From IMG/VR virus record IMGVR_UViG_3300025104_000002, positions 1 to 51,786 of that record: 51,786 nt of DNA, one strand, 5' to 3'. The notes below the pieces were generated by a model that made no database searches, was not told where the DNA came from, and worked only from the letters and a program-made list of their open reading frames with translations. Of this stretch, positions 29,437 to 45,423 are shown in pieces (position 1 is the first letter of the stretch; each line of letters opens with the position of its first letter). This DNA is from a virus. The position numbers and the translations under genes were made by a program.

Positions 29437-31689
29437 TCACGTCCACCCCGCCGCAGGCAAACGCTTGATCTCGCGCCGTCGTTGAATAACACCGCCCTCA
29501 GATGCGTTATGCAAATGGAGCATCAGGTACTGCAAGGCTTCGGCCACGTGCGAGTGCTTGTTCTTGTCGATGTCGCCTTCGCCCTTGGGTTTGAAGCGGT
29601 ACCCGCCCATCATGGCCGCTTTGAGGTGCGTGCAGCGCGGATCGACAAGGAACGCCGGGTCGCCGTCCACCTGCCGCATTAGGTACTCGTCCACGGCGTT
29701 GATGCGGGCCGAGATGTTGTTGGTCTTGGCCGGGATGACCTTGAACCCCTCAGCTTTGATGATGTCCACCGCGCTGCGCTCGTCAGTTTGGGCACGTTGT
29801 ACCCCTGCGGGGTCAACGACGATGAGGACCGGGGCACCGGGGAAGCGTTCGTACAGCAGGGGGCGCAGCACCGTGCGGACAAACCGCTGGATGCCCATGT
29901 CGAAGCTCACCGCTTCGTCGAGGATGAGCGCCCGTCCACGGGGGTCTTGCTGCCCGATCACAGCCGCAGGCGTCAGACCCAAGTCCATGCCGATGACGAT
30001 GGGCCGCACCCCGTTGATAATAGGCCGGATGCGCTCCTTCGCCATGTGGTAGTCTGGTCGGAAGTACTTGTACACCGGCATCCCTGCGGATGACAGCCCG
30101 TACTCACCGTCGATGTAGACCCGGATGTACTCCTCCGAGCGACCCTGCGTATCGTAGTACCCGTCCGGCAGGTTCTCGATGTTCTCGGCGTAAGGGCTGC
30201 GGCCCGAGGGCTGCTTGAACACCTCCCACCCGTTGTTGTTGGGTGACACCCCATCTTTGGGATCGAGGTGTTCGAGTTGGTAGTACCACCACGTGTCCAT
30301 CGTCGGCGGGTTGGTGTCGCCCCACATGCCGTACCACGTCGGCCCGCCGTCCTTTGCAGATGGGTACCGCCCGATCCGCTTACTCATCGCATCCACGATG
30401 TCCGGGTGGATGTCGCGGCATTCGTTGAACCACGCGAAGGTCAATTCCAACGAGTTCAGGTTCGCCACGTCATCGGCATCGTCCAGCGCCCGGAACATGA
30501 TCTCGCACTCCACGTCGCCCACCTTGAAGAAGTAGGTCTTCGTGGTCTTCAGGTACTCGCCACACACACCCGGTGGGAACCAGTCGAGGAACGTCTTGAT
30601 GGTCGTGTCCTGCAACTGGCGAGCGGTTTCACGGACGACGGCTGCACGGGTCTTGCGGATGCCGTTCGCGTTGGGTGCCTGCATGGAGGCACGACGCACG
30701 ATCTCGAACGAACAAGTCACGCTCTTGCCTGAGTTGTGGTGAACCGTCCCATCCACAGTCACATAGTTGTTGGTATCGAGAACCTGCATATCCCAATACA
30801 CCTGCTTGAAAGGCAGACGCTCTATGGATACAACGGTCCCGTCGGACACGGAGTTTCTGTATGAACGCGAACACGCAGCGAATAATCGAACTTTCCAACG
30901 GGCAACGCTCGTCCGTAGAGATCGCAGAGCTTGTCGGGCTTTCCCCTCGCTACGTTCGGAAAGTAATGAAGAAGTTCGACCTCCCGCGTTTTGGAGAGGG
31001 TGCTCAGTCGGGATCACGCAACCACCAGTTTGTGTCTGGACGGCGAGTTGACCATGATGGCTACGTCCTAGTAGCCGCCCCCAAAGACCACCGATACGCA
31101 CGGCAACCGTCTGGGCGAAAGACGAAAGTAATTTTCGAACACCGGCTGGTGATGGAGCAAAAGCTGGGTCGATATCTGCTTCCCGAAGAAGTAGTTGACC
31201 ACGTAGACGGGCTGACTCTGCATAACGCGCCAGATAATCTACGGCTGTTTGCGTCAAACAGTGAGCATCTGGCTCAGACTGCGACAGGGCCGCGTATGTG
31301 GTCTCCAGAGGGGGCGAAGAACATAGGTGCAAGGACTGACCGGGGCGTAGAGATTCAACGGGTTGATAGCTATGGTCAGCGCAGAGCACGCGGTGAAATC
31401 CGGCTGCAACAAATTCTCCTCGCAGCGTTGTCACTCGGTATAGATAGTCCTTTCCTTTTGGGAACGCACCGCCACTTGGAGAAAGCTGGTATCGACCCGT
31501 CTTGTCGTTCCAACTTAGAACGCGCACTGGCCGATCTATACGCTCGATGGGGATGGCCCCCTCCTCAGTTTGGATAAGGGTACCACCTGCGACACAGCCG
31601 ACCGGCCCCATGAGGACGCGCATCTTGGCGTCCGAGGCCATGAACTTCCTGCCGGTGGGCGGGGGTGTGTAGTTGATGTCAAGCGGCAT
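29437..31689 (-). CDS. terL: Large terminase subunit containing an intein
   Basis: The precursor is 750 residues. Removing the intein (residues 32-319) leaves a 462-residue terminase, a normal size. The splice joins GPVG to SGKS and so rebuilds the Walker A motif GPVGSGKS, meaning that ATPase activity depends on splicing. The extein then shows a Walker B region (LELTFAWFNE), a PFAM terminase-type arginine-rich segment and a nuclease domain with IGMDLGLTPAAVIGQ and LIVVDPAGV carrying the metal-binding Asp residues. The enzyme translocates and cuts phage DNA during packaging. The gene follows the small terminase and overlaps a 62-codon gene at its start by 1 nt. Confidence 0.92.
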   Translation of the reverse strand: MPLDINYTPPPTGRKFMASDAKMRVLMGPVGCVAGGTLIQTEEGAIPIERIDRPVRVLSWNDKTGRYQLSPSGGAFPKGKDYLYRVTTLRGEFVAAGFHRVLCADHSYQPVESLRPGQSLHLCSSPPLETTYAALSQSEPDAHCLTQTAVDYLARYAESARLRGQLLLREADIDPAFAPSPAGVRKLLSSFAQTVAVRIGGLWGRLLGRSHHGQLAVQTQTGGCVIPTEHPLQNAGGRTSSLLSERSEGKARQALRSLRTSVARWKVRLFAACSRSYRNSVSDGTVVSIERLPFKQVYWDMQVLDTNNYVTVDGTVHHNSGKSVTCSFEIVRRASMQAPNANGIRKTRAAVVRETARQLQDTTIKTFLDWFPPGVCGEYLKTTKTYFFKVGDVECEIMFRALDDADDVANLNSLELTFAWFNECRDIHPDIVDAMSKRIGRYPSAKDGGPTWYGMWGDTNPPTMDTWWYYQLEHLDPKDGVSPNNNGWEVFKQPSGRSPYAENIENLPDGYYDTQGRSEEYIRVYIDGEYGLSSAGMPVYKYFRPDYHMAKERIRPIINGVRPIVIGMDLGLTPAAVIGQQDPRGRALILDEAVSFDMGIQRFVRTVLRPLLYERFPGAPVLIVVDPAGVQRAQTDERSAVDIIKAEGFKVIPAKTNNISARINAVDEYLMRQVDGDPAFLVDPRCTHLKAAMMGGYRFKPKGEGDIDKNKHSHVAEALQYLMLHLHNASEGGVIQRRREIKRLPAAGWT
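30806..30834 (+). promoter_or_regulatory. Possible promoter for antisense HNH gene
   Basis: TTGAAA (30806-30811) and TACAAC (30829-30834) are separated by 17 nt, a five-of-six and four-of-six match to sigma-70 boxes, about 27 nt before the HNH start codon. It lies inside sequence that encodes the C-terminal splicing blocks of the intein on the opposite strand. Its function is inferred only. Confidence 0.25.
30861..31577 (+). CDS. HNH homing endonuclease antisense within the TerL intein
   Basis: The 238-residue product has an N-terminal HTH (SVEIAELVGLSPRYVRKVMKK, about residues 18-38) and a full HNH nuclease region at about 90-140: EHRLVMEQKLGRYL, VVDHVDGLTLHN and APDNLRLF, supplying the H..DH..N..N/H pattern of phage HNH endonucleases. 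A C-terminal region of about 100 residues ends near ARWGWPPPQFG. The start is supported by CGGAG 7 nt upstream. The whole gene lies inside the intein DNA (30733-31596) on the opposite strand, leaving 19 nt at the block A end and 128 nt at the block F/G end. First codon positions face first codon positions; the second of each gene faces the third of the other. It is likely the homing nuclease that spreads the intein. Confidence 0.9.
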   Translation: MNANTQRIIELSNGQRSSVEIAELVGLSPRYVRKVMKKFDLPRFGEGAQSGSRNHQFVSGRRVDHDGYVLVAAPKDHRYARQPSGRKTKVIFEHRLVMEQKLGRYLLPEEVVDHVDGLTLHNAPDNLRLFASNSEHLAQTATGPRMWSPEGAKNIGARTDRGVEIQRVDSYGQRRARGEIRLQQILLAALSLGIDSPFLLGTHRHLEKAGIDPSCRSNLERALADLYARWGWPPPQFG

Positions 31690-31877
31690 CAGTGCTCCCT
31701 GAGTTCGCCAGACTCGTACTTCTCACGCTGGTCGAGCGCGTTGTGGATGATGACACACGGTTCTTCCTCGTCTGGCGTCGGGTGGCACCAGCAGGCAATG
31801 CTTGTCTCGTGCTCCCGCAGATCGTTCAGTGGCACCACGTGGATCAGGTCATCCGTGCTGCGGTACATGGACTTCAT
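31689..31877 (-). CDS. Small Cys/His-containing protein upstream of terL
   Basis: The product is 62 residues. It contains IHVVPLNDLREHETS followed by CWCHPTPDEEEPCVIIHNALDQRE. This short conserved-looking pattern is one I associate with small proteins near phage terminase genes. The Cys/His residues could bind a metal. The gene overlaps terL by one base and the gene upstream by 29 nt. Function unknown. Confidence 0.6.
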   Translation of the reverse strand: MKSMYRSTDDLIHVVPLNDLREHETSIACWCHPTPDEEEPCVIIHNALDQREKYESGELREH

Positions 31878-32073
31878 CCGGGCCTCCTATCAGCAAAATA
31901 ACAAACTCACGACCACGCTTCTTGGACCGGGTAATGTGCGCCCGGTACGACTTACCCTGCCGGCGGAGTTCATTCTCCACGGTGATGGCCTCACTGGCGC
32001 TGCGCAGCTTCAGGGCCTTGAAGCCCTCGTAAGTTTGGGTGAACAGTTCTTCAATGTTCGATGGCAGTTGCAT
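31849..32073 (-). CDS. Small basic protein in terminase cluster
   Basis: The product is 74 residues with a helical N-terminus (IEELFTQTYEGFKALKLRS) and a strand-rich basic second half (KSYRAHITRSKKRGREFVILLIG). It overlaps both neighbours, TerS and the 62-codon gene, which fits tight late-operon packing. A nucleic-acid-binding role is possible from its charge but unproven. Confidence 0.5.
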   Translation of the reverse strand: MQLPSNIEELFTQTYEGFKALKLRSASEAITVENELRRQGKSYRAHITRSKKRGREFVILLIGGPDEVHVPQHG

Positions 32074-32530
32074 CTTCGGACTCGATGGTGGTAGCTTCGA
32101 TGGTTCGGGCGTCGCGTGGGTCTGGGCCGAGGTTGATGGTGATCTTCACACCACCGGAATTATTCTCCTGTGCGCCAGCATCCTTCGGCTCTAAACCGGC
32201 CCACTTCACGGTGGATTTGATCAGGTCGGCCTTCACAGCCGGGGAGACGGCTGGGTCGTGGATCAACAGCCAAGATGTCGTCAGGAGTTCTTCAGCCTGC
32301 GCACGCGCCTTGAGCTTGAACGTCAGGCCCTTGTCCCTGATCTCGCCACGGTACTGCTCCACCTTCTTCAAGAAGATGGGGTCGGCGTTGAAGGCGAGGA
32401 TGTCGTTGGCCGTGATGTTGTGCCGCCCCATGATTTCTTGGAGCGTTTCACCACTGCCTTCCAGAGTCAGAGCGACATCGAAGGCCAGCCGGTCATTCCA
32501 CTTGGTGTGGTTTAGAGGTAGGTTGTCCAT
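32051..32530 (-). CDS. Small terminase subunit (putative)
   Basis: The 159-residue product has an N-terminal helical DNA-binding-like part (DRLAFDVALTLEGSGETLQEIMGRHNITANDIL), a helical oligomerisation-like middle (YRGEIRDKGLTFKLKARAQAE), and a Thr/Glu-rich C-terminal tail. This layout and its place as first gene of the late block directly before terL fit TerS, which recognises DNA for packaging. The start at 32530 has no clear Shine-Dalgarno and lies only 6 nt after a -10 box, so the transcript may be leaderless. Confidence 0.7.
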   Translation of the reverse strand: MDNLPLNHTKWNDRLAFDVALTLEGSGETLQEIMGRHNITANDILAFNADPIFLKKVEQYRGEIRDKGLTFKLKARAQAEELLTTSWLLIHDPAVSPAVKADLIKSTVKWAGLEPKDAGAQENNSGGVKITINLGPDPRDARTIEATTIESEDATAIEH

Positions 32531-32536
32531 ACTGGG

Positions 32537-32567
32537 AATATAGCACCTTGGGTGACGGGGGTGTCAA
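32537..32567 (-). promoter_or_regulatory. Leftward promoter for late block
   Basis: On the minus strand TTGACA is followed after 16 nt by TGC and then TATATT, so the boxes are a consensus -35 and an extended -10 separated by 19 nt in total. The -10 ends 6 nt before the TerS ATG, which puts the predicted transcription start at or next to the start codon. The same TTGACA-N16-TGCTATAWT layout recurs at 46389-46419. Confidence 0.65.
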
Positions 32568-32712
32568 GAGGATCGGGTATGCGGAGGTTTGGGGGTTATC
32601 GGATCGAGCTAACTTTACACGTACTGTTTTTGGGGTCGTGGTGTGGGGGGTTTACTACAAATGCCGGGGGGTCGAATTTTTCCAGTCCATGTGGGCGGGG
32701 TACCCCCCACCT

Positions 32713-32800
<88 letters not shown>

Positions 32801-32848
32801 GAGGCAACTTGACACTTTCGGCGGGTCAAGCGAGTCTGAATGTGTCGA

Positions 32849-32900
32849 TGCAGCAATCGTGCTGCAAGACAGAGTGGGTGCAATCCCGCACCCGTTCTTT
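32849..32900 (+). promoter_or_regulatory. Two-hairpin leader of first early gene
   Basis: A 7-bp hairpin (TGCAGCA, loop ATCG, TGCTGCA) is followed by a 6-bp hairpin (GGGTGC, 6-nt loop, GCACCC) and GTTCTTT. The second could act as a weak terminator or attenuator about 25 nt before the Shine-Dalgarno of the gene at 32924. The regulatory role is inferred from structure alone. Confidence 0.35.
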
Positions 32901-32923
32901 CACAACCTGTACTGGAGGTTACT

Positions 32924-33223
32924 ATGTCTGCAAAAACCTTTGAAGGTTCCGTGTCCATCGTCAAAAATACCAAAGGCGAGATTGCTCTCAAGCGTGACCC
33001 CGAAGGTAGGTTCTCGGCAGCGAACGCCGCCGAGTGCTACGCCAAGATGATGGAGCTTTGCAAAAGGCTCAAGTCGCCGGTCAACAAGTATTCCTTGTTC
33101 ATCGCTGATGGCGGAACCGAGCCAGTGATGTTGGCGAACCGCTTTGGCAATCCGTACATCGCGCTTCTTCCGAAGCGCGGCGATGGCAACGTCAAGCGTA
33201 GCGCAGTGACAAAGCTGGCCTAA
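32924..33223 (+). CDS. Early 99-aa protein, paralogue A
   Basis: The start at 32924 follows GGAGG at a proper distance. The 99-residue product shares length, order and motifs with the product of 35229-35528: an N-terminal FEGSVSIVKN-like strand pair, a helix with Y.KM..L.K, then NRFGNPYIALLPKR and a C-terminal AVTKLA. The two are clear paralogues separated by about 2 kb. The function is unknown. As the first early gene, directly followed by a strong terminator, it may be highly expressed on infection. Confidence 0.75.
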   Translation: MSAKTFEGSVSIVKNTKGEIALKRDPEGRFSAANAAECYAKMMELCKRLKSPVNKYSLFIADGGTEPVMLANRFGNPYIALLPKRGDGNVKRSAVTKLA

Positions 33224-33227
33224 GTTG

Positions 33228-33260
33228 AACCCCGGCCCCTAGCGGGCCGGGGTTCTTTTT
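33228..33260 (+). terminator. Intrinsic terminator
   Basis: A perfect 11-bp stem (AACCCCGGCCC with GGGCCGGGGTT) with a 5-nt loop is followed by CTTTTT. It lies 5 nt after the stop of the 99-residue early gene and so isolates that gene from those downstream. Confidence 0.85.
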
Positions 33261-33275
33261 CCACTGGAGAACACC

Positions 33276-33362
33276 ATGAGCGATGACGCGAAAGCAATCA
33301 TCGGCGCAATCATCTTCGCGCCCATCTTCTACTTTCTGTTGGTCGTAGTGATGAGCGTCTAA
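33276..33362 (+). CDS. Tiny membrane protein (28 aa)
   Basis: A 28-codon frame begins with ATG 8 nt after GGAG. The product is almost entirely one hydrophobic helix (AIIGAIIFAPIFYFLLVVV) after a short acidic start (MSDDAK). Such single-helix mini-proteins are common in phage early regions. It is too short for family assignment. Confidence 0.5.
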   Translation: MSDDAKAIIGAIIFAPIFYFLLVVVMSV

Positions 33363-33402
33363 CAACCGGGCCGCACAAGCGGCCCATCTTCTGGAGAGTG
33401 AC

Positions 33403-33909
33403 ATGAACTACGAATTCGTTCCTGGCGACACCATCGAAATCAAGTCCGGCAAAGTCCTTCACAGGATCCGGGCTACAACTTATATTGAGCCGCAAGGTGT
33501 CAAACCCGGCAATCTCGGCGGGTACATTGAGAGCTCTAGAAACCTCTGCGGCAACGCCTGGGTCTGCGGCGAAGCCCAGGTCTGCGGCAACGCCCAGGTC
33601 TGCGGCAACGCCCAGGTCTGCGGCAACGCCCAGGTCTGCGGCAACGCCATGATCAATGAGAACGGTCTCATCTTCTGGGCTTCGAAAGTGGGTAGTGAGA
33701 ACGGAACGCTCACGGTCTACAACACGACGTCCAACGAGCTCGAGGTGACGCGCGGCTGTTTTAGCGGCTCGGTCGATGATTTCTTAGCCGCGTCCAAGGC
33801 TAAGCACGACGACGACACGCACCGCGAATACCGGCTGCTGATCGAGGTCGCTGTGTCTCGCATCACACGCGCACGCGAACGGCTGGAGCAAACACGACCG
33901 AGAAACTGA
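33403..33909 (+). CDS. Left-handed beta-helix-like repeat protein
   Basis: The 168-residue product has an N-terminal beta segment with LHRIRATTYIEPQGVKPGNLGGYIES, then six consecutive hexapeptide rungs of the form QVCGNA (about residues 50-84), and a charged helical C-terminus. Hexapeptide repeats of this type build a left-handed beta-helix. The LGGYIES start is a pattern I recall from phage and prophage proteins of unknown function. The rungs are encoded by perfect 18-bp DNA repeats. GGAG lies upstream of the start. Confidence 0.75.
   Translation: MNYEFVPGDTIEIKSGKVLHRIRATTYIEPQGVKPGNLGGYIESSRNLCGNAWVCGEAQVCGNAQVCGNAQVCGNAQVCGNAMINENGLIFWASKVGSENGTLTVYNTTSNELEVTRGCFSGSVDDFLAASKAKHDDDTHREYRLLIEVAVSRITRARERLEQTRPRN
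33577..33648 (+). repeat. Four perfect 18-bp tandem repeats
   Basis: The unit CAGGTCTGCGGCAACGCC is present four times without mismatch, preceded by two diverged copies. Each unit encodes one beta-helix rung, so copy changes keep the reading frame and only lengthen or shorten the helix. Perfect identity implies recent expansion. Confidence 0.95.
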
Positions 33910-33985
33910 GACGCGCAACCTCCCATCGTCCCAGGTCTCACGGCAGAGCTTGCGCTGATGGGACTCTACTTCTAACCACAACCAC

Positions 33986-34015
33986 AAACCCGCCGCAAGG
34001 CGGGTTTTCTTTTTG
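33986..34015 (+). terminator. Intrinsic terminator
   Basis: A 9-bp stem (AAACCCGCC with GGCGGGTTT) has a GCAA tetraloop and is followed by TCTTTTTG. It ends the transcript of the beta-helix gene. Confidence 0.85.
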
Positions 34016-34033
34016 CCTACGCACTTCGCATCT

Positions 34034-34084
34034 GGGCTGACGACTGACTCGGGCTGACGACTGACTCGGGTTGACGACTGACTG
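34034..34084. repeat. Three tandem 17-bp repeats
   Basis: GGGCTGACGACTGACTC occurs twice exactly and a third time with two changes (GGGTTGACGACTGACTG). The array is directly followed by a run of ten G. The size and spacing are those of replication iterons or regulator-binding sites. Confidence 0.85.
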
Positions 34085-34236
34085 ACCTGCGGGGGGGGGG
34101 CGTGCCCTCGCTTTTCTTTGTGTTTTTCGAACACCATACGTCGGGGGTTTATAGCACCAGCCTCGCCGCTACCTTACGACTTTACATCGGGGGGACTGGG
34201 CCGCCGGGCAGCAGCTTTACACTTCGCTATAACATT

Positions 34237-34354
34237 ACACTTTACATGTCAAGTTGTAGAGCGAGGCACGGCAAGCTATGCGATCTGATGTCAACTTACC
34301 GTGATTTTTTACATTTACCCTAGCTAACTATACGCATGTAAAGTGTCAAGTTGT
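34237..34354. repeat. Inverted repeat pair with shared direct extension
   Basis: ACACTTTACATG (34237-34248) and its exact complement CATGTAAAGTGT (34335-34346) flank an 86-nt spacer. Both copies run directly into the same-orientation sequence GTCAAGTTGT (34248-34257 and 34345-34354). The mix of inverted and direct symmetry suggests paired protein-binding sites. Confidence 0.7.
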
Positions 34355-34473
34355 GGAAAAAGTCCAGTGAAATCAACCACTTGCGCTGATGAGACCACGG
34401 GAGCTGGCTCTGTAAAACAATCTATACGATATAGAAAATATAGGTTTTTTCTCAATACCCTTTCACAAAGGCG

Positions 34474-34686
34474 ATGGCTCCTACCATCCAAGACCTTGAC
34501 ACTCCGTGTGCGCCACATTACCTCAAAAATCGTAGATCATCTAGATCGTCACGCACTTTCTCCAATAAAATCAAGTACTTAGACGATCCATTTGACAAGG
34601 TACTTGATGAGGCACAATCTAGATTTTTCAGCGAAAAAGCCGAAAAATGCACATGCAACAGACATCAGATTGATGTCATCGGCTGA
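34474..34686 (+). CDS. Possible 70-aa protein
   Basis: An open frame from ATG at 34474 encodes 70 residues with a basic Ser/Arg-rich start (NRRSSRSSRTFSNKIKY) and a charged helical middle (LDDPFDKVLDEAQSRFFSEKAEK). AAAGG lies very close to the ATG, which is poor spacing. The protein-like composition favours a gene, but the location among control elements leaves doubt. Confidence 0.3.
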   Translation: MAPTIQDLDTPCAPHYLKNRRSSRSSRTFSNKIKYLDDPFDKVLDEAQSRFFSEKAEKCTCNRHQIDVIG

Positions 34687-34756
34687 TCCCATTTGATGTC
34701 TTAGAGACAGCGCAGAGACATACTGAGAGACATCACTTGACTGTCGCACAGACATC
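34661..34756. promoter_or_regulatory. GACATC operator-like boxes
   Basis: GACATC or its complement GATGTC occurs at 34661, 34672, 34695, 34729 and 34751, with the near copy GACATA at 34717. The first pair forms a dyad with a 5-nt spacer. The array ends inside the promoter of the ribbon-helix-helix-like gene. Short tandem 6-8 bp boxes are typical targets of RHH dimers, so autoregulation is a reasonable inference. Confidence 0.5.
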
Positions 34757-34765
34757 GAGTAGAGT
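34737..34765 (+). promoter_or_regulatory. Promoter of RHH-like gene
   Basis: TTGACT (34737-34742) and TAGAGT (34760-34765) are separated by exactly 17 nt, about 40 nt before the ATG at 34806. A GACATC box (34751-34756) lies in the spacer, where bound repressor would block RNA polymerase. Confidence 0.5.
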
Positions 34766-34805
34766 TAGTACCGCACCGCTGTTGGTGTGTACACCGGAGC
34801 TTTAC

Positions 34806-35111
34806 ATGAGGACCAAACAGTTGACCATCCGCCTGACCAACGACTTTCACAAAGCCCTCGTGGACTACTGCGCCGCCAACATGATCCCTGTCAGCACATT
34901 CATGGTCCAACAGACTGCCAAAGCCATTGGATACAAGCCCAAGCAGGCTACCACCCGCACTTATCAGGACCACACACCCGTGGTACAGCCCCCGCAACCA
35001 CCACTTGACAGTGATGGACTCATCCCAGACCTTGGGGAACTGGACGAAAGCGACTGGGACATGGAGGATTTACAGCGCCGCGCCGCTGCGGCCCCGCTTA
35101 GAAACGTCTGA
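34806..35111 (+). CDS. Ribbon-helix-helix-like DNA-binding protein
   Basis: The 101-residue product starts MRTKQLTIRLTNDFHKALVD, a short basic beta strand with alternating residues (KQLTIRL) followed by two helices (DFHKALVDYCAANM and VSTFMVQQTAKAIG), the order of Arc/MetJ-type RHH domains. The rest is Pro-rich and acidic and probably disordered. The start is chosen at the ATG preceded by CCGGAG. With GACATC boxes directly upstream, it is probably an autoregulated early repressor or an origin-binding protein. Confidence 0.65.
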   Translation: MRTKQLTIRLTNDFHKALVDYCAANMIPVSTFMVQQTAKAIGYKPKQATTRTYQDHTPVVQPPQPPLDSDGLIPDLGELDESDWDMEDLQRRAAAAPLRNV

Positions 35112-35113
35112 GG

Positions 35114-35130
35114 CGCACTTTACAGTGCTT
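35114..35130 (+). terminator. Weak hairpin after RHH-like gene
   Basis: A 5-bp stem (GCACT, loop TTAC, AGTGC) is followed by TTTT just after the RHH-like stop. It is short, so partial termination at most. The rest of the gap to 35228 shows no gene. Confidence 0.35.
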
Positions 35131-35228
35131 TTCCGGGATAACGCCGCCCAACTTGACGCTCGGCGCGGCGTCGGCGAGACTGGCTCTGCCTCGGTGCTGG
35201 GCTTTCAGCGCCTCTTTAAGGAGCCATC

Positions 35229-35528
35229 ATGGCGAAGATTTACAAAGGTCAAGTTTCTGTTTACAGCAACAGTCAGAACCAACTGGTTGTAAAGCCCGAT
35301 GCTGAGGGCAAGTTCAATCACGAGAATGTGGCTGAACTGTACAAGACCATGTGTCAACTGGCGAAGAAACACAAGATGGAAGTTCGAGTGTTCAAGCCGG
35401 AACAACTCGGTGACACCCCGGTTCTCATGGCGGATCGTTGGGGTAAGCCTTACATCGCTCTGTTGCCGGAACGTAAAGCCCCCGGCGCTCTGACCGTCAT
35501 CAAGCCTGCTGTTCAGAAGCTGGCCTGA
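35229..35528 (+). CDS. Early 99-aa protein, paralogue B
   Basis: Same length and motif order as the product of 32924-33223: KIYKGQVSVYSN, a helix with LYKTMCQLAKKHK, then ADRWGKPYIALLPER and the C-terminal AVQKLA. AAGGAG precedes the ATG. Two diverged copies in one early region imply an old duplication with retained function. The role is unknown. The beta-strand/helix pattern and small size would suit a host-interaction protein. Confidence 0.75.
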   Translation: MAKIYKGQVSVYSNSQNQLVVKPDAEGKFNHENVAELYKTMCQLAKKHKMEVRVFKPEQLGDTPVLMADRWGKPYIALLPERKAPGALTVIKPAVQKLA

Positions 35529-35545
35529 TCCTACTGGAGACTACC

Positions 35546-35746
35546 ATGTCTGAGAAAGTCACTGTTCAGCAATTACCCTACATCGCCCCTCGCAAAACCC
35601 GTAAGCAAGAAAACCTCCGCTTCGTTGTCAAGTGGATCGAGGGAGACACGATGTACTTCCGCTGGTACAAGCGGGACGATGCTGCTTGTGCTTTCCTCAA
35701 CCGGCTTCGAGGAGCCGGGTTTGAAGCTCGTGTCCTGATGAAGTGA
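35546..35746 (+). CDS. Small early protein (66 aa)
   Basis: The product has an N-terminal basic stretch (PYIAPRKTRKQENLRFVVKW) and a compact beta/alpha second half (DTMYFRWYKRDDAACAFLNRLRG). GGAG precedes the ATG. It begins a run of closely packed small early genes. No family is recognised. Confidence 0.65.
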   Translation: MSEKVTVQQLPYIAPRKTRKQENLRFVVKWIEGDTMYFRWYKRDDAACAFLNRLRGAGFEARVLMK

Positions 35747-35754
35747 GGTCTGCC

Positions 35755-36000
35755 ATGTACAACATCGAAGTGACTGACACCTTTGGTGGTGAAGCCAACT
35801 ACTGCTGGGTCAAACGTGGTTCCACCAAGGCCACGTCCCGTCGAGGGATCATCGAAGCTGTCAAACGTGTTGCTGGTTGGACAGGCTGGTGCCGTGTGAA
35901 AGTGGTGTGCCAAGCTGGTGACTTCTGGGAGATTCGTCCAGTGGACACCAGCGGGGTATGCCAAGTGGCCTTTGTTACTTGGTCTGATGAAGTGCGGTGA
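35755..36000 (+). CDS. Small early protein (81 aa)
   Basis: The ATG at 35755 is chosen because GAGG lies just upstream, though the frame opens at 35743. The product is Trp-rich with alternating strands (ANYCWVKRGSTKATSRRGII and later GDFWEIRPVDTS). It lies 8 nt after its upstream neighbour. Function unknown. Confidence 0.6.
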   Translation: MYNIEVTDTFGGEANYCWVKRGSTKATSRRGIIEAVKRVAGWTGWCRVKVVCQAGDFWEIRPVDTSGVCQVAFVTWSDEVR

Positions 36001-36004
36001 CATC

Positions 36005-36256
36005 ATGGCTGAACACCGCACTGTCATCATCCACATGGATGCTGTTCAACAGCAGACCATGCAACACGAGACTGACCACACTGAGTGGTACAGGGCCATT
36101 GGTCGACTGTCAACATGGAACATGACGTTCCCAACTGTCAACATCTACAAGGATGGTGACACTGACATGGTTGCGGTCTACCTCAACGAACAGGGTGAAC
36201 GTGGTTATGTCATCGGTGCCGTATGGCATGGCGACCACTACGGGTTTCACTCCTGA
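36005..36256 (+). CDS. Small early protein (83 aa)
   Basis: The ATG at 36005 is 4 nt past the previous stop. The product has a helical His/Gln-rich start (IIHMDAVQQQTMQHETDH) and beta strands near the end (DMVAVYLNEQGERGYVIG). No recognised family. The spacing fits an operon of small host-takeover proteins. Confidence 0.55.
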   Translation: MAEHRTVIIHMDAVQQQTMQHETDHTEWYRAIGRLSTWNMTFPTVNIYKDGDTDMVAVYLNEQGERGYVIGAVWHGDHYGFHS

Positions 36257-36349: not shown

Positions 36350-36372
36350 GTATCCATCTGAGGTTCACACCT

Positions 36373-38644: not shown

Positions 38645-38645
38645 C

Positions 38646-38807: not shown

Positions 38808-39652
38808 ATCTCACCGACCGTGCCCTGCTGGTGCAACTCAACGTGTCCCAGTGGACTGCCCGCAAGTACGACAAACGTGCTTCCAAGGAGGTGACGACGG
38901 CCCACGGTGCAGCGTCTGCTGCTGGCCGTTTCAACAAGTCCCTGCTGCCCATGAACGACAAGCTGGAGAACATCTACCGCAAGACCACGCTGATACGCAC
39001 CAAGTACTATGAGTCCACCCTACCGTGGGGTATCGATGGTACGCGGATGCTACCCACTGCCAACTATCTGTCCTTCATGACCGACTTCCGCAAGGAGAAG
39101 GGCGAGTGGGAGCAGTTGGTGCAGGAGTTTCTCGACGAGTACGGCCAGATGAAGCTCGATGCCCAGCGCACCCTTGGTTCGCTGTACGACCCGGATGACT
39201 ATCCAACCGCGCTGGAGCTGCGATACAAGTTCAACATGGACATGGCCGTGTTCCCTGTACCCAGTGCGGATTTCCGTGTCGCCATCGGTTCGGAGGAACT
39301 GAAACGCATCCAGCAAGACGTTGAGCGACGTGTGAAGGAGGCAGAGCTGGCGGCACTGAAGGACGTGTGGAACCGGCTGTACGAACGGGTCAAGCACATA
39401 GCCGAGAAGCTGGCCGACCCCGAGGCGATCTTCCGTGACTCGATGATCGAGACCGCCAAGGAAATCTGTGCGCTACTGCCCCGGCTGAACTTCGCTGACG
39501 ACCCCAACTTGGAAGCCATGCGTCAGCAGGTTGAGGCATCCTTGATCAAGCCCCCTGAAGCTCTGCGCAACGACCCTGCCCTGCGCCGTGATACCGCCGC
39601 TGAAGCGAAGGCGATCATGGACAAGATGGGTACCTTCATGGGAGCACTCTGA
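38804..39652 (+). CDS. Helical protein of the MoxR/VWA operon (DUF3150-like)
   Basis: The 282-residue protein begins LTDRALLVQLNVSQWTARKYDKR and is almost entirely helical with long charged stretches (ELKRIQQDVERRVKEAELAAL). In other phages and plasmids a helical protein of this size often lies between a MoxR ATPase and a VWA protein; my best family guess is DUF3150, made from memory. AGGAG lies upstream. It may be a substrate adaptor or structural partner of the ATPase. Confidence 0.6.
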   Translation: MNLTDRALLVQLNVSQWTARKYDKRASKEVTTAHGAASAAGRFNKSLLPMNDKLENIYRKTTLIRTKYYESTLPWGIDGTRMLPTANYLSFMTDFRKEKGEWEQLVQEFLDEYGQMKLDAQRTLGSLYDPDDYPTALELRYKFNMDMAVFPVPSADFRVAIGSEELKRIQQDVERRVKEAELAALKDVWNRLYERVKHIAEKLADPEAIFRDSMIETAKEICALLPRLNFADDPNLEAMRQQVEASLIKPPEALRNDPALRRDTAAEAKAIMDKMGTFMGAL

Positions 39653-39720
39653 TGGAACTGGCCGCTCTCTTGGACTCCATGAAGCAAGCGGCCATCCTCG
39701 TTCAAGTGAAGGGTGTGTAA
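39652..39720 (+). CDS. Possible 22-aa peptide
   Basis: A 22-codon frame starts by TGATG coupling to the upstream gene and reads MELAALLDSMKQAAILVQVK. The coupling favours translation but the length gives little support. The following 39721-39839 stretch has a TTGACA at 39722 without a matching -10 and no gene. Confidence 0.3.
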   Translation: MELAALLDSMKQAAILVQVKGV

Positions 39721-39839
39721 CTTGACAGACACCTCGGGAAGACCGAGAAAGAAGTAGTGGCAGGCATCAACTCATGGGCAGTATCTGTCCGTGCTGGTGA
39801 TCTGCTGCGTGTGATAACTGAACTCGAACGGAGAATGAA

Positions 39840-40982
39840 ATGACAACTGCAACCATCGACCTGAAAAAGCTGGGTACCAAGCTGGCGAAAGCCAAGACTG
39901 CTCTGATCCTGGAGTATCCCTTCGTTGGTACCATCGCCCTGAACCTGCCCTTCGAGTTCGACGAGAACATCCCCACTGCTGCAACCAACGGCAAGCGGAT
40001 CAAGTTCAACCCCGAGTTCGTGGACAGCCTGACCGATGAGGAGGTCAAGTTCCTCGTGGCCCACGAGTGTTTCCACCCCATGCTGGAGCACAACTTCCGG
40101 CGCGGTAACAGGGCACCGCGCAAGTGGAACATGGCCGCTGACTACGTGATCAACAAGTTGTTGGTCGATGAGGGTATCGGTCGGATGCCCAGGATGGGGC
40201 TGCTTGACAACAACATCTACAACGCCGGTCACGGTACCAGCGAGGGCATCTACAACATCCTGCCGGAACAGCCTGAAGACGGCAGCTCTGGTGCTGGTGA
40301 ACCCGGTGGCCCGCTCGACGATTGCGAGGACGGTGAGGGTAGCCCTGCTGAACAGCAGCAGCTACAGGCCGAGTGGAAGGTGAAGGTGGCCCAAGCTGCA
40401 CAGGCAGCGAAGATGATGGGCAAGATGTCTGCCAACATGCAACGGCTTGTCAATGAGGTGCTGCAACCCAAGGTGGACTGGCGTGAGGTGCTGCAACGCT
40501 TCCTCGTCAAAGCCCGCAACGACAGCCGCTCGTTCGCTCGGTTCAATCGCCGATTCATTGCGCAAGGGATGTACCTGCCCAGTGTCAACGGTGAGGCGAT
40601 GGGTGAGGTGCTGTTCGCAGTGGACTGCTCTGGCTCCATCGACCAGCATACGATCAACCAGTTCGCTGCTGAGGTCACCAAGGTCAAGGAAGACCTGATG
40701 CCTGAGCGTATCCACGTGATGTACTTCGACAGCGAGGTCAGTCACGTGGAGAGCTACGAACCACACGATGATCTGGACATCAAACCCCACGGCGGCGGCG
40801 GTACCGACTTCGCTCCGGTGTTTGCCAAGATCATTGAACTCGGGATCAACCCGGTCGCCATCGTGTTCCTCACTGACCTGTGCTGCAACAGCTTCGGTGA
40901 TCAGCCCGATGCACCTGTGCTGTGGGTCACGACCGATGCAGACAAGGCACCCTTCGGTGAAATTGTGGAGATGGTTGACTGA
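39840..40982 (+). CDS. Zincin + VWA domain protein (DUF2201-like)
   Basis: The 380-residue protein has an N-terminal metallopeptidase-like domain with HECFH at residues 75-79 (a full HEXXH) and a second His-rich segment (HNFRRGNRAPRKWN). A Glu/Gln-rich linker follows near 150-170. The C-terminal von Willebrand factor A domain has a MIDAS motif DCSGS at 262-266 and further DxxxSHVES and GGGGTDF elements. This is the layout of DUF2201 proteins, which pair with MoxR ATPases. The ATPase at 37661 may remodel or activate it. The start has GGAG upstream. Confidence 0.85.
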   Translation: MTTATIDLKKLGTKLAKAKTALILEYPFVGTIALNLPFEFDENIPTAATNGKRIKFNPEFVDSLTDEEVKFLVAHECFHPMLEHNFRRGNRAPRKWNMAADYVINKLLVDEGIGRMPRMGLLDNNIYNAGHGTSEGIYNILPEQPEDGSSGAGEPGGPLDDCEDGEGSPAEQQQLQAEWKVKVAQAAQAAKMMGKMSANMQRLVNEVLQPKVDWREVLQRFLVKARNDSRSFARFNRRFIAQGMYLPSVNGEAMGEVLFAVDCSGSIDQHTINQFAAEVTKVKEDLMPERIHVMYFDSEVSHVESYEPHDDLDIKPHGGGGTDFAPVFAKIIELGINPVAIVFLTDLCCNSFGDQPDAPVLWVTTDADKAPFGEIVEMVD

Positions 40983-41077
40983 TGATGCTGGCCCTACCCG
41001 ATGGGAATACGCGTGGCTCCGATATGTGCGCTGAGCGTCGCGCCAAGGGGGCCGTTTACCGGATGGGTCTGCTTTGA
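40982..41077 (+). CDS. Possible 31-aa peptide
   Basis: A short frame starts with two ATGs in a TGATGATG overlap with the VWA stop and runs to 41077. The product is basic and has no recognisable feature. Included because the coupling is tidy, but it may be noise. Confidence 0.3.
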   Translation: MMLALPDGNTRGSDMCAERRAKGAVYRMGLL

Positions 41078-41089
41078 CTGGAGAAGCGA

Positions 41090-41278
41090 ATGATGTTTGT
41101 AGATGTTTGTATGAAGGACACGGAAGAACCGCGCGAAGTGGCTAATCGCCATGAGATTTTGGTTGGAGCTTACCAACCATCGTCAGCTCGATACGAGCGC
41201 GAGAAGAAGGAAGTCGTGCTGGAGGTTGACCTCGACAAACTCACTGCCCTGAGTACCGCTGCCAAGTTCGGACTGTGA
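41090..41278 (+). CDS. Small protein (62 aa)
   Basis: ATG at 41090 is preceded by GGAG. The product is charged (REVANRHEILVGAYQ and KEVVLEVDLDKLTAL) with a strand-helix pattern. It is 8 nt upstream of the next gene start. No family is recognised. Confidence 0.5.
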   Translation: MMFVDVCMKDTEEPREVANRHEILVGAYQPSSARYEREKKEVVLEVDLDKLTALSTAAKFGL

Positions 41279-41286
41279 GGGGCACG

Positions 41287-41676
41287 ATGCCACGTATCGA
41301 CGAAGAAAAACGCCGAGAGTGGCTTCGCGCCTTGCGCCGGTTCAAGTACGGTATCAAGGTACGGGCCAAGCTCGGTGTACTGCAAATCATCTGTGAGCGA
41401 GTTCATACGCAACGTAAGGGTAAACAACAGTGGGACGTACCCCAGTGGGAGCACGACAGATGGGTTACGTTCCTGTACACTTGCATACGGGATAACGAGT
41501 TCCCACCGGAGTTGCTGGAAGGGTTTGTAAAAACCGCCGAGGTGACATTTCTCACCCCGAATAGACAACCCACGGTGGACAAGGTACTCGACGCTGTGAA
41601 TCAAGTATGCAAACAAAACAGCAGGGCACTCCGGCGCAAGTTCGGGGTGTTTGTGCGAGGTGACAATGGGTACTAA
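41287..41676 (+). CDS. Basic protein (129 aa)
   Basis: The ATG at 41287 is preferred because GAGGGG lies upstream; an overlapping GTG at 41275 would add 4 residues. The product is rich in Arg and Lys (KRREWLRALRRFKYGIKVRAK) with Trp residues and predicted helices, consistent with nucleic-acid binding. It lies in the replication block before a DUF3310 gene. The function is unknown. Confidence 0.55.
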   Translation: MPRIDEEKRREWLRALRRFKYGIKVRAKLGVLQIICERVHTQRKGKQQWDVPQWEHDRWVTFLYTCIRDNEFPPELLEGFVKTAEVTFLTPNRQPTVDKVLDAVNQVCKQNSRALRRKFGVFVRGDNGY

Positions 41677-41770
41677 GAAGAAGCCGCGCAAGAAGTACCG
41701 ACCCAAACCAGTACTAAAGAACCCCGTGGGGGTACGTGCTGGAGAGTCTAACGCCAGTGCGGAACCATAG
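41666..41770 (+). CDS. Very basic mini-protein (34 aa)
   Basis: The frame begins 10 nt before the previous stop, with GAGG upstream. The first 20 residues are dominated by Lys and Arg (GTKKKPRKKYRPKPVLK). It may bind nucleic acid. The length limits confidence. Confidence 0.4.
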   Translation: MGTKKKPRKKYRPKPVLKNPVGVRAGESNASAEP

Positions 41771-41834
41771 CTTTCCGCTGACGGAACAACAGATTGCTGA
41801 GCGCAAGACCCGCCCTCTTTTGAAAGGAATCATC

Positions 41835-42137
41835 ATGGCGAAGATCACCAAGGAGCAGCAAGTTGTTGCAGTACACCACTCGATGGTGGGGCAGGAGTTC
41901 GTTGAGTCTCCCCGTGCCAAGGACAGGCAGGTGGGCGGCGACCATTACAAGGTGATGGGCGTGGAACCGTGGGACGTGGTGGATACGTGGCCCCGTGAGC
42001 AGCGCATCGGCTACTACCGCGGCAACGCACTGAAGTACCTGATGCGCATGGGCAGCAAAGACGCCGCGCCGATGGAGGTGGCAAAGGGCCAGCACTACAT
42101 CCAGAAGTTGTTGGAGGTTCTCAATGAGCAAGAGTAA
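41835..42137 (+). CDS. DUF3310-family protein
   Basis: The ATG at 41835 follows AAAGGA at good spacing; the open frame upstream to 41736 is not needed. The 100-residue product carries the DUF3310 pattern: DHYKVMGVEPWDVVDTW, then GYYRGNALKYLMRMGSK and a C-terminal helix QHYIQKLLEVL. The family includes the T7 gp1.7-type nucleotide kinase region, so a nucleotide-metabolism role in phage replication is plausible. It lies upstream of the DNA polymerase. Confidence 0.8.
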   Translation: MAKITKEQQVVAVHHSMVGQEFVESPRAKDRQVGGDHYKVMGVEPWDVVDTWPREQRIGYYRGNALKYLMRMGSKDAAPMEVAKGQHYIQKLLEVLNEQE

Positions 42138-42234
42138 CCCACCCTGTTGCAGTTCGGGGCTGCGCTGGAGTTCGGTGTGCCCCAGCGCGTGATCAGTCGG
42201 ATCGTCAGACGTGCATCCTACAAGGACATTTAAT

Positions 42235-45200
42235 ATGATGGACATCGTAACCATTGATTTTGAAACCTACTACGACAAGGACTATTCCCTGTCGAAGATG
42301 ACCACTGAATCCTACATCCGTGACCAGAGGTTCGAGATCATCGGTGTGGGCGTCAAGGTCAACAACTACCCCACCGACTGGTACAGCGGCGACAACCCCG
42401 GTAAGTTCCTCAAGTCGCTGAACTACAGCAATAAGGCCATCCTGTGTCACAACACAGCGTTCGATGGTGCCATCTTATCGTGGCACTTCGACATCCGTCC
42501 GAGACTGTGGTTGGACACCCTGAGCATGGCGCGTCCCTTTCACCAGTTGACGGTGGGCGGTAGCCTCAAGGCGTTGGCCCAATACTACGGGTTGGGCGTC
42601 AAGGGCGAGGAAGTGGTAGCTGCAATCGGCAAGCGGCGCAAGGATTTCACCCCCGAAGAACTTGCCCGGTACGGGCAGTATTGCATCAATGACGTGAACT
42701 TGACCAAGGCACTGTTCGACAAGCTCAAGGTGGGGTTCCCTGTCAGCGAACTGCTGGTCATCGACCAGACGCTGCGCATGTACACCGAGCCGGTGATCGA
42801 ACTGGATGTGCCACTCTTGGAGAAACATCTTGAGGAAGTCCGCACCCGCAAGCGCACCCTGATCTCTGACATCGGCCACGGCATGGGTGGTGAGCAGGCG
42901 GTGCAGGACATGCTGATGTCCAACGACAAGTTCGCCGAGTACCTCAAGCGGCTGGGTGTGGAGCCGCCCACCAAGATCAGCGCCAAGACGGGCAAGGAAT
43001 CGTGGGCCTTCGCCAAGACTGACAAGGGCATGACCGACTTGCTGGAACATCCTGATGAGCGTGTGCAGGCTGCGGTCGCTGCCCGACTGGGTGTGAAGTC
43101 CACCCTCGAAGAAACCCGCACCGAGAACCTGATCGCCGTAGCGAAGCGTGGGCGACTACCCATCATGCTCAACTACTACGGTGCCCACACGGGGCGCTTC
43201 AGTGGCGGCGACAAGCTCAACCTCCAGAACCTGCCGAGCCGTGGCAACACGACCATCCGCAGGGCGCTCAAGGCACCCGAGGGCCACGTGCTCATCTCGT
43301 GTGACTCCGCGCAGATCGAAGCACGTACTGTGGCATGGGTGGCAGGGCAGGACGATCTGGTGCAGGCGTTCCGTGACAAGCGGGATGTGTATTCCGAGTT
43401 CGCCTCCGAGGTCTACGGTCGCAAGATCACCAAGGCCGACAAGGTGGAGCGGTTCGTGGGTAAGACCTGTATTGCCGAGGGAACTCTTGTATTATCGCAT
43501 CACGGCTGGAAGCCTATTGAGTCGGTGACGACCGACGATTTGTTGTGGGATGGACAGGAGTGGGTATGCCATCAAGGATTACTGAACAACGGCATCAAGC
43601 CAACATTGAATCTGTGCGGCGCTTGGTTGACACCGGATCACCAAGTCTGGTCAGGGACGCAGTGGCTGGAAGCGCAATCAGTAGTAGCCGACGAAGATAC
43701 CCTCTACCGAGCATTGGACACCGGAGCGGAAAACTTACCGTCACAGGCTACATTGCTGGCACCCGAGGCGGGGTCAGTGCCCTTGTGGTCAGATGCGACT
43801 GCAACGAAGCCGAGTATCGAGTTGACCACCATAACTTCAAAAATTTCAGAAGCACTCGCTGCCCTCTGTGCGCCAAGAAAGCATCGGTTGCAAAACGCTA
43901 TTGGATGTACAGCGAAGCAATGGCGGATGATGACCACCGGACTCGCTTGCTCAATCGTCTCGCTTCGGCAATCACTCGCTGCCACTCTCCATCCAACAGA
44001 GCGTATCAGCACTATGGTGGGCGCGGCATACGGGTGTGCCCCGAGTGGCGCTTTGACCGAGCAGAGTTCCTGCGGTACGTCCAGACCCTCGACGGTTGGG
44101 ACAACCCGACTTTCGAGATGGATCGGATCGATGTGGACGGGCATTATGAACCGGGGAATATCCGCTTCGTATCGCGGAGCGATAACCTCCGCAACAAGCG
44201 CAAGATCGCAGACCTTGAAGCGCGTGTACGACATCTTGAACAGCGGCTCAAGGAACAGGTTCACGATCCTGACTGAAGCTGGCCCGCTCGTTGTCCACAA
44301 CTGCGTTCTGGGTCTGGGCTACGGCATGGGCGCAGAGAAGTTCCGACGCACTCTGGAGATCGGCCAAGGCGGCATCAACGTGGTGATCGACATCAACGAG
44401 GCAGAGCGGATCGTCCGCCTCTACCGACAGAAGAACTGGAAGATCGTACAGTTTTGGCAGAAGTGCGGCAACGCACTGAAGGACATGTTGTACGGTGGCA
44501 GCAATGCGCTGCACCCGCAGGTTCGCTACGACCCCAAGGGTATCCGCTTGCCAAACGGGTTCTACATCCAGTACCCGGCGCTGCGCGAGACGGCCAATGG
44601 GTTCATGTACATCTCGGATGCCCGCACCTACCAGAAGGCGCTCAAGGATCGAGTGCTCACTGGCGCACCGGCTGACGACATCGCATGGACTCGCGTCTAC
44701 GGCGGCAAGGTGACGGAAAACTGCATCGCCGCAGGGACGGAGGTGCTGACCAACCGAGGCTGGGTTCCTATAGAGAACGTGCAGTCGGCAGACATGGTGC
44801 ATGACGGAGTGGAGTTCGTTCGCCACGGTGGGACAGTGTTCAAATCTGTCCAAGACTGTATCACCATTGATGGCGTGTGGATGACCCCAGACCACGAGGT
44901 ACTGACAAATACCGGATGGCAAGCTGCATCACAGAACCCCGAACCTTACAGACCAAACCTTCGGCATGTTGACCGCTATCAACTGCGAGTGGACCACGCG
45001 CAGGACCAACACCACGAACAAGCGCAACACCGAGCGCAGAGTGGATGTACCGGCGCTCAGTGCGCAGACTGGGATACCCAGATCAACCCTGTACTACCGA
45101 CTCAAGCACGGCCTGTCTTTGACATCCTCAACGCAGGACCAAGACAACGGTTCGTAGTTCGTGGCGATAACGGTCCGTTCATTGTGCATAACTGTGTGCA

Positions 45201-45423
45201 AGCTCTTGCTGCATTGGTGATCCGTGAGCAGATGGTCGAGGCTGGCAAGCACTTCAAGGTGGCCTTCCAAGTCCACGACGAGATCATCATCTGCGTCCCC
45301 GAGAGCGCCGCGCTGGCAGCGCAAGCCAAGCTCGAAGAGATCATGTCCACCCCGCCCAAGTGGGCACCAGACCTGCCGGTTGCATGTGAATCCGGTGTGG
45401 CTGCGAACTATGGAGATACCTGA
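42235..45423 (+). CDS. Family A DNA polymerase with two inteins
   Basis: The start is set at ATG 42235 (AAGGA upstream), giving a 1062-residue precursor; a GTG at 42211 is the alternative. The N-terminal 3'-5' exonuclease begins with VTIDFETYYDK (exo I, D8 and E10). Polymerase motif A is DSAQIEAR (D357), motif B GKT/CVLGLGYGMG is split by intein 1 (residues 412-689), and intein 2 (830-986) splits TEN/CVQALAALV. Motif C is HDE near D1015. Removing both inteins leaves 627 residues, a normal phage polymerase. The enzyme replicates the phage genome with the primase-helicase. Activity requires both splicing events. Confidence 0.92.
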   Translation: MMDIVTIDFETYYDKDYSLSKMTTESYIRDQRFEIIGVGVKVNNYPTDWYSGDNPGKFLKSLNYSNKAILCHNTAFDGAILSWHFDIRPRLWLDTLSMARPFHQLTVGGSLKALAQYYGLGVKGEEVVAAIGKRRKDFTPEELARYGQYCINDVNLTKALFDKLKVGFPVSELLVIDQTLRMYTEPVIELDVPLLEKHLEEVRTRKRTLISDIGHGMGGEQAVQDMLMSNDKFAEYLKRLGVEPPTKISAKTGKESWAFAKTDKGMTDLLEHPDERVQAAVAARLGVKSTLEETRTENLIAVAKRGRLPIMLNYYGAHTGRFSGGDKLNLQNLPSRGNTTIRRALKAPEGHVLISCDSAQIEARTVAWVAGQDDLVQAFRDKRDVYSEFASEVYGRKITKADKVERFVGKTCIAEGTLVLSHHGWKPIESVTTDDLLWDGQEWVCHQGLLNNGIKPTLNLCGAWLTPDHQVWSGTQWLEAQSVVADEDTLYRALDTGAENLPSQATLLAPEAGSVPLWSDATATKPSIELTTITSKISEALAALCAPRKHRLQNAIGCTAKQWRMMTTGLACSIVSLRQSLAATLHPTERISTMVGAAYGCAPSGALTEQSSCGTSRPSTVGTTRLSRWIGSMWTGIMNRGISASYRGAITSATSARSQTLKRVYDILNSGSRNRFTILTEAGPLVVHNCVLGLGYGMGAEKFRRTLEIGQGGINVVIDINEAERIVRLYRQKNWKIVQFWQKCGNALKDMLYGGSNALHPQVRYDPKGIRLPNGFYIQYPALRETANGFMYISDARTYQKALKDRVLTGAPADDIAWTRVYGGKVTENCIAAGTEVLTNRGWVPIENVQSADMVHDGVEFVRHGGTVFKSVQDCITIDGVWMTPDHEVLTNTGWQAASQNPEPYRPNLRHVDRYQLRVDHAQDQHHEQAQHRAQSGCTGAQCADWDTQINPVLPTQARPVFDILNAGPRQRFVVRGDNGPFIVHNCVQALAALVIREQMVEAGKHFKVAFQVHDEIIICVPESAALAAQAKLEEIMSTPPKWAPDLPVACESGVAANYGDT
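43468..44301 (+). mobile_element. Intein 1 in polymerase motif B (278 aa)
   Basis: Block A is CIAEGTLVLSHHGWKPIE, block B is LTPDHQVW, block F is RVYDILNSGSRNRF and block G ends LVVHN before Cys+1. These are complete class 1 splicing signatures. Between B and F about 165 residues are Ser/Thr/Ala/Leu-rich without a recognisable endonuclease fold. The DNA there encodes an HNH nuclease in another frame. The insertion lies in the fingers O-helix of the polymerase, a classic conserved intein site. The intein is homologous to intein 2 at both ends. Confidence 0.93.
43566..44276 (+). CDS. HNH endonuclease overprinted in polymerase intein 1
   Basis: The ATG at 43566 is preceded by AGGAG five nt upstream, so it has its own ribosome site inside the intein message. 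The 236-residue product has an N-terminal segment, then GKLTVTGYIAGTRGG and a Cys-rich knuckle (VRCDC and STRCPLCAKK), the HNH region ITRCHSPSNRAYQHYGGRG, VCPEWRFDRAEF, MDRIDVDGHYEPGN and RFVSRSDNLRNKR, and a C-terminal coiled coil. That is a complete phage-type HNH nuclease. Its first codon position is the intein third position. It covers intein block B at its N-terminal side and block F at its C-terminal side, so essential splicing residues are doubly encoded. Confidence 0.9.
   Translation: MPSRITEQRHQANIESVRRLVDTGSPSLVRDAVAGSAISSSRRRYPLPSIGHRSGKLTVTGYIAGTRGGVSALVVRCDCNEAEYRVDHHNFKNFRSTRCPLCAKKASVAKRYWMYSEAMADDDHRTRLLNRLASAITRCHSPSNRAYQHYGGRGIRVCPEWRFDRAEFLRYVQTLDGWDNPTFEMDRIDVDGHYEPGNIRFVSRSDNLRNKRKIADLEARVRHLEQRLKEQVHDPD
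44722..45192 (+). mobile_element. Intein 2 in DNA polymerase (157 aa mini-intein)
   Basis: Block A is CIAAGTEVLTNRGWVPIE, block B is MTPDHEVL, block F is PVFDILNAGPRQRF and block G ends FIVHN before Cys+1. The size is that of a mini-intein. The ends align with those of intein 1 (CIAxGTxVL, GWxPIE, TPDH, DILNxGxRxRF, VHN), so the two are related. The residues between B and F are His/Gln/Arg-rich and include a region encoded by a remnant of a nested nuclease gene. Confidence 0.92.
44966..45157 (+). pseudogene. Remnant of an out-of-frame HNH gene in intein 2
   Basis: A 63-codon frame in the third reading frame starts at 44966 and is open upstream only back to a stop at 44903-44905. It reads INCEWTTRRTNTTNKRNT, the segment that follows the catalytic His/Asn region in phage HNH nucleases (compare the NIRFVSRSDNLRNKR tail of the complete copy). 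A small HTH (VPALSAQTGIPRSTLYYRLKHG) like those on HNH C-termini comes next. No nuclease core precedes it. I read it as the tail of a deleted nested endonuclease. A functional DNA-binding mini-protein cannot be excluded. Confidence 0.7.

Follow-up and report, generated by a model that had tools for sequence, protein, structure and literature searches.

Inteins and Nested Nuclease Genes in the Window

The DNA analysed is the IMG/VR virus record IMGVR_UViG_3300025104_000002, a whole stretch of 51,786 nucleotides (hereafter, the window), in which the gene for the terminase large subunit (TerL) holds one intein and the DNA polymerase (Pol) gene holds two, each with an HNH nuclease gene or its relic in another reading frame of the same DNA. 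The TerL open reading frame (ORF; positions 29437–31689, minus strand, 750 aa; phrog_2, E 8e-26; Terminase_3) is interrupted at Walker A by an intein of 288 aa (30733–31596, minus strand) with the junctions GPVG|CVAGG...VHHN|SGKS. On the plus strand, an ORF of 238 aa (30861–31577) is nested antisense to intein residues 8–246 and comprises a helix-turn-helix (HTH), an HNH_3 domain, and a conserved C-terminal part; it matches the HNH family phrog_10730 over residues 3–230 (E 4e-55) and Pfam HNH_3 (5e-7).

The family A DNA polymerase ORF (42211–45423, plus strand, 1070 aa) contains intein 1 (43468–44301, 278 aa, GKT|C...VVHN|CVLG; phrog_93) and intein 2, a mini-intein of 157 aa (44722–45192, TEN|C...VHN|CVQA). 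In intein 1, an HNH endonuclease ORF occupies polymerase frame +2 (43545–44276, constrained core at about 43713–44220; phrog_374, E 2e-35), with a likely internal start at ATG 43566 behind an AGGAG at 43556–43560. Intein 2 retains in frame +1 the relic of a further HNH gene, of which the ends are present and the middle is deleted (44906–45154); all these Pol features are on the plus strand. Both host ORFs are unbroken, so that neither a fractured gene nor a split intein is present in the window.

These features bear out two claims of an earlier reading made from the sequence only: splicing and nuclease functions are in different frames in three of three inteins (antisense in TerL, +2 in Pol intein 1, and +1 in the relic of Pol intein 2), and the two intact nucleases are built differently, the TerL enzyme being HTH plus HNH_3 and that of Pol intein 1 Cys-rich plus HNH.

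The inserts have the marks of inteins, namely, C, S, or T at +1, splicing blocks, HN before C, S, or T, and a Hint fold. In the structural model of the TerL intein, residues 1–92 and 246–288 are confident and residues 141–245 are disordered; the model gave 31 PDB matches at E ≤ 1e-3, with inteins at the top. Its profile matched the DnaX mini-intein at E 0.0056, and Pfam Intein_splicing scored on it below the family cut-off. These data suggest that the TerL and Pol inserts are inteins that should splice out of the host protein. The HNH sequences fit the HNH homing endonuclease family, with H94, H114, N122, and N126 invariant among 24 rows, and the nuclease in the other frame or on the opposite strand probably spreads the insert.

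Conservation of the Arrangement

The alternative raised by the sequence-only reading, that the arrangement would be found nowhere else and its frames would fail conservation tests, was not borne out: the conservation tests were passed, and among all loci collected (designated by L numbers), merged to distinct sequences, we found 244 embedded elements in which a long host frame stays open through the nuclease gene, 92 being antisense, 64 at +2, and 88 at +1. The nuclease frame differs from the host frame in 244/244, so none is an intein with an in-frame nuclease. All 92 TerL-type elements are antisense in one phase, and from the Hint side an antisense HNH accompanies 76 of 77 TerL inteins (shortened in L352). 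The host frame is open in 67 of the 73 Pol-1-type elements (64 at +2, 3 at +1, and 6 none), in 76 of the 100 intein-2-type elements (all at +1; 24 none), and in all nine of a DUF559 type (+1). The other 30 elements have no host frame; they either stand free as genes or sit between split halves.

When the HNH genes of the window were recoded with their own codons, the host frame stayed open in only 0.27% (TerL) and 0.07% (Pol 1) of trials. Open sequence clusters numbered 59/59 against 0.17 expected from recoding for the TerL type, 53/62 against 1.16 for the Pol-1 type, 66/90 against 0.16 for the intein-2 type, and 6/6 against 0.00 for DUF559, counts that are not independent trials because the clusters are related by descent.

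The insertion points of the dual-coding element at the Pol motif sites differ slightly (GKT|C, ILG|C, and ELA|C; EN|C, GKL|C, and GK|C; L016–L082, L204–L282), as if the insertion point had slid by a few codons.

Selection and Dual Coding

Rates of change by codon position were calculated for 56 rows of the Pol-1 set, a few of which are not of the +2 type (e.g., L095, L178, L190–L192), and for 53 TerL rows. Over residues 57–225 of the Pol-1 HNH, changes at codon positions 1/2/3 were 0.31–0.35/0.22–0.27/0.56–0.61, whereas over residues 1–56 they were 0.38/0.23/0.26. In the latter stretch, HNH position 1 coincides with host position 3, which indicates that Hint-N governs it; the conserved HNH protein therefore begins near residue 57.

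The TerL HNH shows the HNH codon pattern over residues 1–140, with third-position values of 0.53–0.67. Over residues 161–230, which are antisense to Hint-N, the values are low at all three positions (0.24/0.30/0.30), and thus both proteins are constrained there. The nuclease frame is under selection, and there is true dual coding where the tail of the TerL HNH lies antisense to the splicing domain.

Putative Expression Signals of the Hidden Nucleases

In many TerL relatives, a sigma-70-like promoter occupies a fixed place upstream of the antisense ATG; in L124 and L131 it reads TTGACA-17-TATAAT. A weak copy in the window, TTGAAA-17-TACAAC (30806–30834, plus strand), occupies the same position, and GGAG (30850–30853) precedes the ATG at 30861. 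Over 52 TerL loci, the promoter score was 9.61 versus 8.26 for recoded hosts, and the Shine–Dalgarno match length was 4.69 versus 3.18. In the Pol-1 hosts with the WDG..WVCH motif, the internal ATG is kept in 18/18, with 5.9 expected. These signals point to expression of the HNH proteins from their own starts.

Mobility Pattern of the Element

TerL relatives numbered at least 597, and the C-exteins of the best-matching 80 are 86–100% identical. In 75 of these 80, the GPVG|SGKS site is empty and the HNH is missing, and 5 carry both the intein and the HNH; the joint absence is as a homing element predicts. Conversely, HNHs 40–54% identical occur in terminases that share only 20–28% C-extein identity (10 loci), always at Walker A. 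It appears from these comparisons that the TerL element has moved between unrelated terminases as a homing element would.

Two further observations concern TerL. The HNH of the window occurs at 100% identity in L169 (CAKZRW010000019.1). This contig was assigned to the bin of an uncultured actinobacterium, and either a prophage or a binning error would account for it. A free-standing HNH of the Pol-type family lies directly downstream of TerL in L010–L012 and L014, at about 1500–2020.

Decay of the Nuclease in Pol Intein 2

The corresponding intein of SFCi1, APSE-1, Caulobacter RW, and about ten viral contigs has an intact HNH gene in frame +1; L176, L181, and L184 are among the loci with the intact gene. 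The window retains both ends of this HNH in frame +1, and its intein 2 is 471 nt long compared with 900 nt in L181, from which we conclude that 429 nt (143 codons, a multiple of three) were deleted. The polymerases of L188, L189, and L193 hold both hidden nucleases, at +2 in intein 1 and at +1 in intein 2, and the Pol layout of the window seems to have decayed from such a two-nuclease layout.

Number of Origins and Survey of Other Inteins

In a tree of 85 HNHs, whose root is unknown and in which the long branches L071 and L083 are unsure, the +2 set forms one clade (99/90). The +1 HNHs fall in three places, i.e., intein 2, L088/L179/L195, and L071 next to the split-intein HNHs of L026/L031/L032, and free-standing HNHs branch between these groups. 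Within the Pol-type HNHs, the approximately unbiased (AU) test rejects as one clade the +1 set (p = 0.012), the +1 plus +2 sets (p = 0.0047), and the HNHs associated with inteins as a whole (p = 0.028). These tests reject a single capture in Pol, subject to the root and the two placements just mentioned. Since the sister HNHs are free-standing, it is likely that free-standing HNHs invaded existing mini-inteins and not the reverse.

To survey other inteins, we searched 694 genomes with PF14890. Matches occurred in 22 of the 398 genomes from one phylum and in 110 of the 296 from a second, and 53 loci were obtained. In 43 host ORFs, alternative-frame stretches of at least 125 aa were compared with Pfam; 150 of 152 were scanned (L446:1-3549:- and L452:118-4002:- were left out). 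In L443 (1547–2221) and L450 (1541–2284), the intein of a DEAD-box helicase (DE|C..HN|CH) carries a DUF559/Vsr-like nuclease in frame +1, and viral relatives of this nuclease show the same arrangement. The helicase gene of L450 has a second intein at Walker A, of canonical appearance, with LAGLIDADG in frame. HNH profiles matched only L463 among the 53 loci, which is the already known L171 element (Acinetobacter TerL). Further Pfam names in the scan (LAGLIDADG_3, Ribonuc_red, Hint, and others) may be explained by a wrongly chosen host ORF, and an alignment of mixed inteins yielded no search pattern. A survey of this kind had been proposed by the sequence-only reading; at this small scale, hidden nucleases were rare in it, namely, the DUF559 genes and L463.

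That reading had also held that one ancestral accident is insufficient, which the AU tests and the different architecture of the antisense HNH support. Its idea of recurrent capture stands because of the AU rejection within Pol, which implies several Pol captures, the distinct TerL architecture, and the third kind of nuclease, Vsr/DUF559. The wording "in any open orientation" was too broad: only three of the five possible frame relations were observed, with one phase kept per lineage (TerL, 92/92).

Proposed Model and Alternatives

We propose that these elements are mobile inteins in which the homing endonuclease has a gene of its own, lying within the intein DNA but in a different frame, and we assign this model a probability of roughly 0.85. 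Read in the host frame, the DNA would encode a polymerase or terminase that carries a Hint domain, the halves of which are joined by an unstructured linker, and the domain would splice itself out; read from its own start at +2, +1, or antisense, the linker DNA would give the HNH nuclease. The latter would cut intein-free alleles at the insertion site, and repair would copy the whole element. In the linker, selection acts on the nuclease frame, and the host frame need only stay open; in TerL, where the overlap extends over the splicing domain, selection acts on both. Free-standing HNH genes would have entered mini-inteins several times, each capture being frozen in phase and then spreading, and Pol intein 2 would be the end stage, in which the nuclease was lost through an in-frame deletion and the intein was retained.

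Several results weigh against this model. An own-frame stop occurs in 12 of the 244 embedded nucleases, and the descent of the clusters lowers the weight of the recoding counts. The TerL promoter reaches P ≤ 0.05 individually in only 16 of 52 loci, and a standard promoter scan calls none at the weak antisense copy of the window. The Pol-1 Shine–Dalgarno value of 4.72 versus 4.30 is no better than host coding implies. A fold search of the HNH model against PDB gave zero matches at E ≤ 1e-3, so the HNH fold is unconfirmed by structure search, and a new hidden nuclease in 2 of 43 surveyed host ORFs (L443, L450) shows that the arrangement is rare in cellular inteins.

The many long antisense ORFs of the window might suggest chance open frames in G+C-rich DNA with the HNH matches as side effects, but the strength of the two phrog matches, the recoding and free-standing controls, and the codon-position rates leave this view with a negligible probability. 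The inserts could also be self-splicing introns carrying an HNH gene, as in the annotation "type I self-splicing intron" of Sodalis phage SO-1 (NC_013600; L003 2908–3666, gp39). Group I introns with a nested homing endonuclease gene (HEG) do resemble our elements in that the HEG lies inside a splicing element and is independent of the host frame; here, however, it is the protein that would be spliced, not the RNA. The host frame is open, the Hint ends are C...HN|C/S, and no Rfam intron match at the gathering threshold was obtained for the window, SO-1, or Ent1. The zero matches and the intein in the host frame make the intron reading extremely improbable. HNH proteins help the terminase in some phages, so the nuclease might serve the phage, for example, in packaging, rather than homing; its absence together with the intein from 75 of 80 close TerL relatives and its tracking of the intein across unrelated terminases make this very unlikely.

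The two other alternatives concern the Pol elements. Pol inteins 1 and 2 have related Hint parts, and each frame class is largely a clade, as would be expected if one ancestral in-frame intein–HNH fusion had drifted out of frame by indels and all Pol cases were one event. This we judge quite unlikely, since the AU tests reject the +1 and the +1 plus +2 groupings, free-standing HNHs sit between the intein-embedded groups, the antisense relation cannot arise by frameshift, and no in-frame relative was seen in six-frame searches. Programmed ribosomal frameshifting, which would produce a Pol-N/Hint-N/HNH fusion, is compatible with the position of the Pol HNH on the host strand at +1 or +2 and with a Shine–Dalgarno match not above expectation. 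The internal ATG conserved in 18/18 of the Pol-1 hosts with the WDG..WVCH motif and the existence of related nucleases as free-standing genes argue against it, and it is impossible for the antisense gene of TerL; we judge it unlikely.

In broader terms, we think it rather probable that mobile inteins have a third general architecture in addition to the in-frame and split ones, namely, out-of-frame nesting, and that at least two nuclease superfamilies arrived at it independently, in three frame relations. It would uncouple nuclease expression from the host protein, so that a late structural gene can carry a nuclease made at another time. The TerL nuclease would be transcribed from an antisense promoter of its own within the DNA of the splicing domain, and about 70 codons would be encoded on both strands simultaneously, under selection in both.

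Comparison with Known Systems

Inteins without an in-frame nuclease are usually taken as decayed mini-inteins; by the proposed model, many phage "mini-inteins" would instead have full mobility, their nuclease being concealed in a different frame. Canonical mobile inteins, such as the LAGLIDADG-like intein of L450, likewise unite intein and homing nuclease in one element at a conserved motif; the difference is that here the nuclease is a separate protein from another frame or strand. Dassa et al. in 2009 reportedly described fractured genes, in which a free-standing Vsr-like HEG lies between the halves of a split intein. There too the HEG is a separate gene beside the Hint halves, but in our main elements the intein is unbroken, and the two genes share one stretch of DNA. 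The fractured arrangement itself, PolN-HintN/free HNH/HintC-PolC, is present in L026 (600–1800), L031 (1100–3200), and L032. The split intein of these three loci occupies a third Pol intein site, TGR|..HN|SG, and in Escherichia phage phi G17 (L194), Pol is in two ORFs with an HNH between them.

The nearest published case, which is not an intein, is the out-of-frame HNH of the ShiLan domain and Pacc40 insertion in a phage methylase (Arsenault, Gosselin, and Gogarten 2025; PMC11855218); its authors found no splicing domain in the insert and state that it is no known intein or intron. According to the same article, the HNH lies in the third frame of the insertion with the host ORF open, and the insertion is sporadic and apparently homing, as in our elements. 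Its host is a dispensable methylase, whereas here a splicing domain is present, in the form of a Hint intein at the active-site motif of essential genes, and one nuclease is antisense. The same element as ours is already annotated as overlapping Pol and HNH genes in APSE-1 (P45/P46) and SO-1 (gp38/gp39) but neither annotation recognises an intein that brings along an out-of-frame nuclease. In the open-access literature, we found no intein with an out-of-frame or antisense nuclease, though bioRxiv 10.1101/2025.01.02.630785, on actinobacteriophage inteins of non-canonical architecture, may already cover some of these findings.

Hundreds of phage sequences conserve the arrangement, which arose several times and provides dual-coding genes of deep conservation, including an antisense one. 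With free, split, overlapping, and relic stages in one HNH family, it offers a natural system for the assembly of composite selfish elements, and its presence in cultured phages (Jerseyvirus, APSE, Pectobacterium phages) makes testing easy.

Elsewhere in the window, two plus-strand open frames of more than 830 codons each (2211–4823 and 4842–7358) lie antisense to an ORF of 2701 aa (1644–9749).
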